This document shows positions 1-7,426 of a stretch of DNA of 24,792 nucleotides, piece after piece. The stretch's first letter is position 1, and every line of letters starts with the position of its first letter. A program made the translations under genes and the position numbers. The stretch is from a virus, in IMG/VR virus record IMGVR_UViG_3300018481_001304, positions 1-24,792 of that record; one strand, given 5' to 3'. Below the pieces are notes generated by a model that was not told where the DNA came from, made no database searches, and saw only the letters and a list, made by a program, of their open reading frames with translations.

Positions 1-954
1 CTATTTAGTGAGGTTTTGAAGTTGTTCTGCCATTAACGTTACTTTAGCTTCCAAATCGTTAAACCTCCCGTAGAGTTCTCCAGGCTCTGGGAAATCGAAT
101 AAAACACCCGCCCGCAAGTACCACAATTCCAAAACATCTGATTGATCTAAAATTATGTTCGGGTAATCTCTTTTGTTTTGGTTGTCTGATATTAAAATTA
201 GCTTTCCAGTATCGTGAACTCGGTTTAGTACCCTTTTAATTACAATCCCTTCAGACTTTGTAACTACAATATAGATACGCCTATCGCGTATATCTTCAAT
301 GCTTTCAGTCCATCTGCCAACTGCAATAGATGAATTTGGAAGCGTTGGCATACTATGGCCTTTTACTTCGAATGCGCGATGTGTGCCACCCCTTATGCCT
401 GGCATTTTAATAGTCGGTAGGTTTCCAATATATTCAGGATCGCCGTAACCATTCAGGTAACCAGCCGCTGCTTTTGCGGCTACAAGCGTTACTAAATCTT
501 CATTATTTTCACTGATTGCAATAACCTTTGGCGTTCCTAAATTAAGAGTTGGGGGGGCATTATTATGAGTTGGGGTGTCAGTTGGAGTGTCAAATTTACC
601 AAAAGTTGGGGTGTCACTATTGGCATTTTTTAATGCTGAAACTCCTGACTTTTGGATATCATCATTAGGGGTATTTGCATTTATTTTATCTAACTCATTT
701 GGGGTTACCAGCATTTCGCCGATGCCATTAAGCAGCCATCTAGGATTTACGTCAACAAACATGTTGGTAATAGCTACTAAAATGTCAGTAGTAGGTATTG
801 GATATTTCTTAGTTCTAGTATCAATATTAAATAATCTATTCAATGTTTGTTGAGATACGTTCTCTAATTGCTCTGCAAAAACCCTTACTACCCCATTGGA
901 ATAATGATTTATTAATCTTTTAACTCGTTGATTTATAGGAGGAAGAGAATCCAT
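1..954 (-). CDS. Phage repressor, HTH plus S24 (LexA/CI-type) self-cleaving peptidase
   Basis: A 317-aa protein. The N-terminal ~85 residues look like an XRE-type DNA-binding region; residues 71-82 (PRWLLNGIGEML) are the 'P.WLL.G.G.M' signature common in Bacteroidetes phage repressors. A low-complexity linker follows (about 100-143), then an S24 peptidase domain with the Ser nucleophile at S201 (GHSMP) and the Lys general base at K240 (IVIKRV). An Ala-Gly pair at 164-165 (AAAGYL) sits where LexA/CI proteins cleave themselves. The last ~25 residues are heptad-like. In this family RecA filaments trigger autocleavage, so the inferred role is to hold the prophage silent and induce it on DNA damage. 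It is divergent from the early operon, as in Mu-like phages. The gene is complete, with its stop at the window edge. Confident on family; DNA target not shown. Confidence 0.88.
   Translation of the reverse strand: MDSLPPINQRVKRLINHYSNGVVRVFAEQLENVSQQTLNRLFNIDTRTKKYPIPTTDILVAITNMFVDVNPRWLLNGIGEMLVTPNELDKINANTPNDDIQKSGVSALKNANSDTPTFGKFDTPTDTPTHNNAPPTLNLGTPKVIAISENNEDLVTLVAAKAAAGYLNGYGDPEYIGNLPTIKMPGIRGGTHRAFEVKGHSMPTLPNSSIAVGRWTESIEDIRDRRIYIVVTKSEGIVIKRVLNRVHDTGKLILISDNQNKRDYPNIILDQSDVLELWYLRAGVLFDFPEPGELYGRFNDLEAKVTLMAEQLQNLTK
569..616 (-). repeat. Short repeats in the repressor linker
   Basis: On the plus strand GTTGGGGTGTCA occurs at 569-580 and 605-616, with a one-base variant at 581-592. 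On the coding strand these give repeated Asp-Thr-Pro-Thr units in the linker between the DNA-binding and peptidase domains. Repeat gain or loss could change linker length without shifting the frame, because the unit is 12 bases. Confidence 0.7.
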
Positions 955-4452: not shown

Positions 4453-4826
4453 ACGCACAAAAATTTATAACTGAAGCTAACAAACAGAGAGTTTGCCAGC
4501 TCTTGGGCTGGTCACTAGGTGACTATACACAATACCAGGAAAATAAAGGGCTTGAATATTTAAGCGAAGTGGTTTGTTGCGATTTGTGGAGTGTAAACAA
4601 CCTGGCTAAAGCCCCGTTTTTCTGGAGGTGGTGGGTTAACCATTGGAACGCACGGGATGTCGAATTTATAGCCGACGCGAGTAACTGGCCTTTAGATTGG
4701 TTACGCCGCAAATACAACGATTTGAATGCGGTGGATGGCTTTACGTTCTGGCCTCATAAAATCATCATGGAGCAAAGCTATGCATACATGATTGGCGATG
4801 TAAATAAAGAATCAGTACGGGTATGA
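4449..4826 (+). CDS. Early-region protein of unknown function, Trp-rich
   Basis: A 125-aa protein whose ATG overlaps the previous stop and whose stop overlaps the next start (ATGA at both joints), so it is firmly in the operon. It is rich in Trp and aromatic residues: WSLGDYTQYQ near 22-31, FFWRWWVNHW near 57-66, and WPLDWLRRKYND near 78-90. No membrane segment or known catalytic motif is visible. The Trp-rich middle could be a compact fold contacting other replication proteins, but I do not recognise the family. Confidence 0.62.
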   Translation: MNAQKFITEANKQRVCQLLGWSLGDYTQYQENKGLEYLSEVVCCDLWSVNNLAKAPFFWRWWVNHWNARDVEFIADASNWPLDWLRRKYNDLNAVDGFTFWPHKIIMEQSYAYMIGDVNKESVRV

Positions 4827-5113
4827 AAGGCGGGGATATCATTGCTATTGTAGAGAAACAAACGGGTTTTACATTGGCGCAAATGAAGGCTACCCGTAAG
4901 GACGAAGTACTTAAGCCTCGCTATCTTTTAACCCTTTTATTGCATGAAGAAGGCTGGAGTGCGGACAGGATAGCGGAACTATTTACCCGCAATAGAACGG
5001 GTACAGGGAAAGCTTTGAAAAATGCAGATAAGCTGCTGGGAAACGATAAATATTTTAAAAAGAACTATTTGGCTTGTGTGGCCAAAATAACTGAATTAGA
5101 AGATGCGATTTAA
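4823..5113 (+). CDS. DnaA domain IV-like DNA-binding protein
   Basis: A 96-aa protein. Residues about 30-75 (KPRYLLTLLLHEEGWSADRIAELFTRNRTGTGKAL) follow the plan of DnaA domain IV: a long helix beginning with R and hydrophobics, a 'S...I...F.R.....' basic helix-turn-helix, then a helix with Ala/Lys. In DnaA this domain reads DnaA boxes at origins. No AAA ATPase domain is present, so this is a stand-alone DNA-binding module, perhaps for replication or for competing at host sites. It overlaps its neighbours by 4 and 11 bases. Family assignment is by pattern only. Confidence 0.6.
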   Translation: MKGGDIIAIVEKQTGFTLAQMKATRKDEVLKPRYLLTLLLHEEGWSADRIAELFTRNRTGTGKALKNADKLLGNDKYFKKNYLACVAKITELEDAI

Positions 5114-6325: not shown

Positions 6326-6544
6326 ATGAAAAGGAATGAGTTAACTATAGCGGGCGCTTTAGCAATTGGCGATACTTTCTATAAAGCCAGTGATAAAACT
6401 AAAAAGGTTTTTGAACGGATAGAAGGCGAAACGAAACAAAGTGCTTTTGCAATGTACAACGTCACCGCTCACGAACATGGGAGTAAGTTCCCTGAAGCAA
6501 TGAAAAGTAATACAGCCGTGGTGTTTTTGCGCCATATCGGCTAA
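6326..6544 (+). CDS. Small hypothetical protein
   Basis: A 72-aa protein starting MKRNELTIAGALAIGD, predicted as mixed alpha/beta with several Lys and His. Its last codons and stop form the left arm of the 6535-6582 inverted repeat, so its 3' end is tied to that regulatory structure. It has a 130-base gap upstream, unlike the overlapping early genes before it. No family recognised. Confidence 0.5.
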   Translation: MKRNELTIAGALAIGDTFYKASDKTKKVFERIEGETKQSAFAMYNVTAHEHGSKFPEAMKSNTAVVFLRHIG

Positions 6545-6582
6545 TTATCCGATAATTTAATATATCGGGTAATTAGCCGATA
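6535..6582. repeat. Duplicated 20-bp palindrome / 20-bp stem
   Basis: Two near-palindromes lie in tandem: TATCGGCTAATTATCCGATA at 6535-6554 and TATCGGGTAATTAGCCGATA at 6563-6582. They differ at 2 of 20 positions, and their centres are 28 bases apart. Each is self-complementary except at positions 7/14. Together they pair with each other over all 20 positions (one G-U) with an 8-base loop, so the RNA could also form a long hairpin. It covers the stop of the 6326 gene and ends 16 bases before the ATPase start at 6599. Likely a dimer-binding operator pair, or an RNA hairpin setting expression between the two genes. Confidence 0.72.
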
Positions 6583-6598
6583 AATTTCGATTTAAAAT

Positions 6599-7426
6599 AT
6601 GAAACCATTAGGAATAAAACAATTTCATCAGAAAACATTTAGCCTTTTAGATTTAAAAGGCAGCAAGTTTGCAGGGGTTTTGGGTAATGTTACCCGCCAC
6701 TTTACATGCGTTATTTACGGGTATAGCGGCAACGGAAAAACAGAGTTCTGTGTACAGCTGGCTAAAGAACTTGCTAAACATGGGCGTGTGGCCTGGTTAA
6801 GTTATGAACAACGCCACGGCTTCGATCTGCAGACCGCTACACGCCGTAACAATATGGAAGAACAAAGCGGCAACTTTATCCCTATTGATCCGCTGGCGAA
6901 TATTGAAAAGGGCGTAAGCTTATTAGAGGATTTATACAACTACCTATCAAAGAAAGCAAGCCCTGAATATATCTTTATTGATAGCCTGGATTATACAGGC
7001 TTCACATTTGATGATTACAAGCTTTTGAAGGAACGCTTTGATGGTAAAAAGACTTTCATATTCATTGCACACGCAGATAAGTCTGGCAATCTTAAAAAGT
7101 CTGTTAGCCGTGATGTTTTGTTTGATGGTGGCATGGGTATCCGCGTAAAAGATTTCATTGCTGAAGCTGAAAAGAATAGATACGGGGGATTTGAGCCGTA
7201 TATCGTTTACGAACAAAAGGCTAGGGAACGTAATCCTGCATTCTTTACTATGAGGCTAAAAGGCCAAACAGCCCTGCCATTAGCGGAGGGCGCTGAAGCT
7301 GTACCCACTCCTAAAGATAGGGGTAATTCGCCAATACCCCCTATTGAAAGTATAGGGATAAAAGCCAAACAGCCCGTTAAAGTTGATGGGCTAAAAGTAT
7401 CAAAAAACCCTTTAGCGGTATGTTAA
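6599..7426 (+). CDS. RecA-fold ATPase (RadA/DnaB-like P-loop NTPase)
   Basis: A 275-aa protein. Walker A is GYSGNGKT at 41-48; a SYEQ segment at 68-71 sits where RecA-fold enzymes carry the catalytic Glu; Walker B is YIFIDSLD at 124-131; a sensor-like strand FIFIAHADKSG follows at 153-163. The C-terminal ~60 residues are Pro/Lys-rich and probably disordered. Such proteins in transposable phages probably act with DNA during replication or repair after strand transfer, but the substrate cannot be read here. It follows the duplicated palindrome by 16 bases and overlaps the next gene by 7 bases. Family is clear; role is inferred. Confidence 0.75.
   Translation: MKPLGIKQFHQKTFSLLDLKGSKFAGVLGNVTRHFTCVIYGYSGNGKTEFCVQLAKELAKHGRVAWLSYEQRHGFDLQTATRRNNMEEQSGNFIPIDPLANIEKGVSLLEDLYNYLSKKASPEYIFIDSLDYTGFTFDDYKLLKERFDGKKTFIFIAHADKSGNLKKSVSRDVLFDGGMGIRVKDFIAEAEKNRYGGFEPYIVYEQKARERNPAFFTMRLKGQTALPLAEGAEAVPTPKDRGNSPIPPIESIGIKAKQPVKVDGLKVSKNPLAVC

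Follow-up and report, generated by a model that had tools for sequence, protein, structure and literature searches.

The early region of a Mu-like Pedobacter phage, held in a 24.8-kb viral record (24,792 nucleotides; here called the window), carries two closely spaced palindromes directly in front of a gene for a RecA-fold-type ATPase. Do these palindromes act as RNA or as DNA, and which protein would read them?

A tandem palindrome pair in the early region

The early genes are arranged in the order S24 CI-like repressor (positions 1-954, minus strand), transposase (PHROG 310), MuB-like ATPase (PHROG 296), DUF3164 protein, a 72-amino-acid ORF (6326-6544, plus strand) and RecA-fold-type ATPase (6599-7426, plus strand; PHROG 6891). 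The 72-amino-acid ORF, for which no Pfam or PHROG match was obtained, ends with a TAA stop codon inside the first palindrome, an arrangement also seen in the related phage L004 and in a prophage of genome G465. Copy 1 (TATCGGCTAATTATCCGATA, 6535-6554) and copy 2 (TATCGGGTAATTAGCCGATA, 6563-6582) are separated by an 8-bp spacer (6555-6562) that sets a start-to-start period of 28 bp, and the ATG at 6599 lies 16 bp past the array. A preceding sequence-only reading, which had described two 20-bp palindromes 28 bp apart at a stop codon before a RecA-fold ATPase, was thereby confirmed. When the consensus was searched with up to three mismatches, two matches were found in the window compared to 0.01 expected, and none of 100 shuffled sequences reached two. 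No further good copy of the site was present in the window, the repressor's own promoter region included. A clear Bacteroidota promoter was not found at the array, and enrichment of TANNTTTG near phage arrays was not significant (7 versus 3.4; 19 of 300 shuffles).

Elsewhere in the window, a small protein encoded at 4823-5113 matched the C-terminal domain of DnaA with a score below the threshold. The repressor promoter (955-1006), upstream of the S24 repressor gene, contains a direct repeat, TTACTTAAATGTTTGT, which is unlike the sites at 6535 and is likely an operator of the S24 repressor.

Arrays of the same type are linked to satD in host genomes

A scan of genome contigs with a pattern of 18 fixed bases yielded 72 stretches, mostly from Pedobacter and many of them with tandem sites at 28 bp beside satD. 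They hold 56 distinct arrays of two to six copies at 28 or 29 bp (at most two half-site mismatches). Most arrays adjoin a SatD-family gene followed by a DUF3307 gene; they sit in satD promoter regions, often between divergent genes, and in Pedobacter their other neighbour is a ligase-associated exonuclease-ligase-helicase operon. A minority of the 72 lies elsewhere, in mobile elements (e.g. L038, L071, L072, L080, L082), and unrelated genomes with single palindromes are also among them (e.g. L054, L057, L062, L065, L091, L095).

Both window copies match the half-site bases of the Pedobacter type, TATCGG-N8-CCGATA, at 12 of 12 positions and share the 6-8-6 layout of the host satD operators. We define a SatD-type operator by half-sites of this kind, a tandem arrangement with a 28- or 29-bp period, a position directly upstream of satD and binding by SatD; the window pair has the half-sites and the 28-bp period, and the gene that follows it is the ATPase gene instead of satD.

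The association was quantified in 119 genomes of the genus Pedobacter. A tandem site (gaps of 0-30 allowed) was present in 59 of them and the reversed control in none. A close SatD homolog is encoded in 64, including all 59 with the tandem site; five close-SatD genomes lack an exact pair. None of the 55 genomes without close SatD (eight with divergent SatD only, 47 with none) had a tandem site (Fisher 1.7e-28; the genomes are related, so that the p-value is only a guide). Where positions were listed, the tandem site was directly upstream of satD in 39 of 39 Pedobacter genomes.

A more independent test is the extension to the whole phylum. The Bacteroidota sample comprised 69 satD loci in 68 of 395 genomes, and at 59 of these loci tandem palindromes at 28 or 29 bp upstream of satD beat 100 of 100 dinucleotide shuffles. 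The best period was 28 or 29 bp in 63 of the 69, and in the control region inside satD tandem palindromes passed at none of the 69. The shuffle test failed at L139, L148, L152, L246, L265, L267, L274, L281, L287 and L290. In a smaller sample of 30 loci including more distant SatD proteins, nothing was found at, for example, L156-L159.

Two other accounts of the host arrays were rejected. The DNA-repair operon could have been their true partner. In other Bacteroidota, however, satD and the array stay together, with a DUF3307-like gene nearly always behind satD, whereas the upstream neighbour varies; satD is therefore the constant partner. The second was a dispersed host repeat, a possibility that the sequence-only reading had raised against itself. 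REP elements are extragenic palindromes of 20-40 bp, as stated in the accessible part of PMC3733652; in contrast, the arrays described here occur mainly at one locus per host genome, with a fixed period and in promoter position. In 12 whole genomes the loose pattern had three to eight exact matches each, mainly in one satD array, which rules out a REP-type repeat.

The half-site co-varies with the SatD recognition helix

SatD proteins (PF16264) combine an N-terminal nucleotidyl-cyclase/GGDEF-like domain with a predicted C-terminal helix-turn-helix. Relative to the Pfam cut-off of 29, proteins of L066 (29.7 bits) and L093 (37.3 bits) scored above and those of L041 (24.8) and L078 (23.2) below. 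In a model computed from 37 sequences (pLDDT 91, pTM 0.89), the N-terminal domain resembles cyclase, GGDEF and Cas10-palm domains (VIA Z up to 11.8, rmsd 2.9 over 108 residues); the best Foldseek E-value for this domain was 2.4e-3, with none below 0.001. The C-terminal helices of the model include the conserved QSSVSE helix. Residues 145-181 match a phage regulator family (E 3.3e-4), and SatD of L093 gave sub-threshold helix-turn-helix hits. A sequence search of the PDB returned nothing convincing, and SatD and DUF3307 had no hit in a defence-system library.

Half-sites and helices were compared at 65 loci, L148, L152, L265 and L290 having been dropped as they gave no signal. The site finder gives a bonus for TAT ends, which is the same in every row. 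The half-site starts with TAT in 57 of the 65, all with Gln171 in the helix QSSVSEALKR (residue 171 read by eye). A TAT start thus marks 57 of the 58 Gln171 rows and none of the seven lacking this residue (L145, L260, L263, L267, L284, L285, L286), which have other half-sites. The single row with Gln171 and no TAT, L287, has a weak signal. Further, Ala173 goes with T at half-site base 4 in eight of 14 distinct combinations versus one of 26 others (p 2.9e-4, uncorrected for phylogeny). Such co-variation is the trace that would be expected of a protein contacting its own operator.

The window pair is therefore a candidate SatD operator on two grounds: its half-site, 6-8-6 layout and 28-bp period are identical to those of the arrays upstream of Pedobacter satD, and arrays of this kind go with satD across Bacteroidota while half-site and recognition helix co-vary. 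We consider it probable that the two palindromes together form a DNA operator with two sites, of a type that a SatD-family protein of the host recognises. The earlier proposal of a dimeric DNA-binding protein is supported by the half-sites kept in relatives and by the linkage to satD; the likely binder, left unnamed there, would be host SatD.

Phage and mobile-element arrays

Pairs of the same kind at 28 bp were also found in L003, L004, the G465 prophage and the more distant mobile elements L017 and L171. The ATPases of L003 and L004 are 94% and 97% identical to that of the window, and the G465 prophage is 99.29% identical over 3,825 nt and carries the same array. The gene after the array varies, being a 77-amino-acid ORF in L003, a PAPS-reductase/SspD-like gene in L004 and a C5 DNA methyltransferase gene in L017, with start codons 2, 2 and 15 bp past the array, respectively. 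In L171 an ATG lies 2 nt past the array; the ORF caller (60-amino-acid limit) gave the ATPase gene 155 bp away as the next gene. The cargo gene of L004 (2250-2993) is of the phosphorothioation type. A pair near the ATPase gene was absent from L005, L006, L007 and L008 and from the more distant L166, L167, L169, L170 and L172. In the related prophage L168 a single palindrome, TACCGG-N8-CCGGTA, stands at this gene end, which speaks against the operator reading.

Among viral contigs, a tandem TATCGG pair occurred in 20 stretches, with a gap of 8 in 14 and of 9 in six, and no other gap was seen though 0-30 was allowed. The half-site TATCTG gave four stretches with gaps of 8, 8, 2 and 24, and a permuted control half-site gave none. 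Flanking ORFs, called crudely, were co-directional at 16 of 27 phage and mobile-element arrays, divergent at two and convergent at seven, and two arrays lay at contig edges; L016 was left out as it has no tandem pair at that threshold. Tandem TATCGG palindromes with gaps of 8 or 9 adjoin tRNA genes in L118, L119, L120, L121 and L128, mostly in phage tRNA clusters. From the convergent positions and the tRNA clusters it follows that not all arrays need be SatD operators; some of the 20 viral arrays, located in tRNA clusters and large phages, may be elements of another kind. In the Pedobacter mobile elements L013, L014, L015, L018 and L122 the array lies before or near a SRAP gene and/or a small DUF6965-like gene (Pfam confirmed both genes in L013 only, and for the other elements they were assigned by sequence similarity).

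SatD was not among the ten window ORFs scanned. A profile search found it in none of 32 array-bearing or related viral records, a set that includes several fragments and excludes the window; the same profile does detect SatD in G001. The phage studied here thus seems to have a SatD operator of two sites but no satD gene of its own. In G465 (L184), the genome with the prophage nearest to the window, only a satD remnant interrupted by stop codons is left, no DUF3307-like frame was seen and the satD locus is without a tandem array. This speaks against a simple role: an array can be carried without a working satD, and it may serve in other hosts or be read by another factor.

The absence of a phage-encoded SatD from the 32 records would also suit a decoy, in which the host's SatD is titrated by phage DNA as it replicates, so that satD-DUF3307 is derepressed and no phage gene is regulated. 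The sites are the same as in the host operator, and phage arrays have exactly two copies in 25 of 25 cases. A decoy could sit anywhere, however, and in the Mu-like relatives 2-16 bp separate the array from the start that follows, which suggests local control; we consider titration alone unlikely.

Termination and RNA structure

Many phage arrays have a stop codon at their edge or within them, and seven of 27 lie between convergent ORFs; both would fit an intrinsic, possibly bidirectional, terminator or 3'-end hairpin. The potential stem in the window has seven GC among its 20 pairs and a tail, AATTTCGATT, and was flagged by a lenient terminator scan only. The claim that a T run is missing thus holds loosely: a proper T tract is lacking, and the stem with its tail is nevertheless picked up by the lenient scan. 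In L012, L020 and L026, convergent genes are separated by single TATCGG palindromes that have T tracts; these are probably ordinary terminators and lend the idea some support. Against it stand the strict period of 28 or 29 bp and the location of the host arrays in satD promoter regions, often between divergent genes. A terminator is thus quite improbable for the window pair, and the earlier view of a control point that is not an ordinary terminator fits the evidence.

The palindromes could, alternatively, fold together into a single long hairpin of the early mRNA that serves translation, processing or stability, as suggested by the stop codon at the array and the start codon that directly follows it. 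Folding of 6515-6610 gave one 20-bp stem with a single G-U pair (-37.5 kcal/mol, z -6.15), as good as which was none of 200 shuffles. An Rfam search of the array gave no match. In the window, 9 of 10 base pairs can form within a copy and 20 of 20 between copies, and the sequence-only reading had taken the better pairing of the inner bases between copies as a sign of selection for an RNA hairpin. This was not borne out: between-copy pairs fall from 20 of 20 in the window to 15-17 of 20 in relatives, the folded stem weakens from -29.2 kcal/mol to between -9.9 and -21.1 kcal/mol, and in the 56 host-genome arrays, of which 39 have three copies, inner bases pair equally well within (689/952) and between copies (692/952). 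Half-site symmetry, in contrast, is kept: pairwise differences among five related phage arrays amount to 14/240 in half-sites, 42/160 in inner bases and 25/80 in spacers. As the site moreover tracks satD and its recognition helix, an RNA element is very unlikely.

That the array serves a protein of the phage, which encodes both an S24 repressor and a DnaA-like protein, is hardly credible, given that the window has no other good copy, the repressor promoter has the direct repeat instead and the site is satD-linked in hosts.

Discussion

The two-site SatD operator preferred here resembles known systems in part. Use of a host repressor's sites by a phage is already known: GIL01 uses host LexA boxes, according to the available text of PMC4551915. 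Like the phage described there, ours would be a temperate phage with sites for a repressor that the host employs for genes of its own; the difference is that the LexA/SOS boxes of GIL01 were demonstrated by experiment, whereas here another, uncharacterised regulator family and tandem 20-bp palindromes at 28 bp are proposed. The non-canonical (S24) LexA of Bacteroidetes also has palindromic operators, GGA-N5-TCC or CTAA-N5-TTAG in the passages available from PMC8565304, which differ in half-sites, spacing and protein family. Neither box is present in 6535-6582 by inspection, which rules out a LexA site. The host gene beside the arrays belongs to the same family, PF16264, as SatD of the Streptococcus sat operon, reported for acid tolerance and essentiality in the accessible portion of PMC11323703. 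Among open-licence papers, none was found that describes SatD as a DNA-binding regulator or a SatD operator.

In the proposed mechanism, SatD dimers would bind each palindrome, side by side. In the host, SatD would control its own operon, satD-DUF3307. On phage DNA, the host protein would sit 2-16 bp ahead of a start codon and switch the early or cargo gene that begins there, in the window that of the ATPase, with the state of host SatD. As the sites directly adjoin start codons, our guess is that this control is most likely repression, although it may also be activation. A nucleotide is a plausible signal because of the cyclase-like domain seen in the SatD model. The arrangement suggests that the phage has wired an early gene to a control protein of its host.

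More tentatively, and with some doubt as to the whole, SatD may be a phylum-wide regulator of Bacteroidota whose cyclase-like domain senses a nucleotide signal and which binds adjacent palindromes by a readable code between helix and bases. Its two-site operator may repeatedly have been installed before early or cargo genes by Mu-like and other mobile elements, so that the SatD signal of the host would decide on phage expression. The SatD operator proposed for the window pair gives an uncharacterised, widespread family a function that can be tested, for which operators and contact residues are predicted, and links this family to the control of phage genes.
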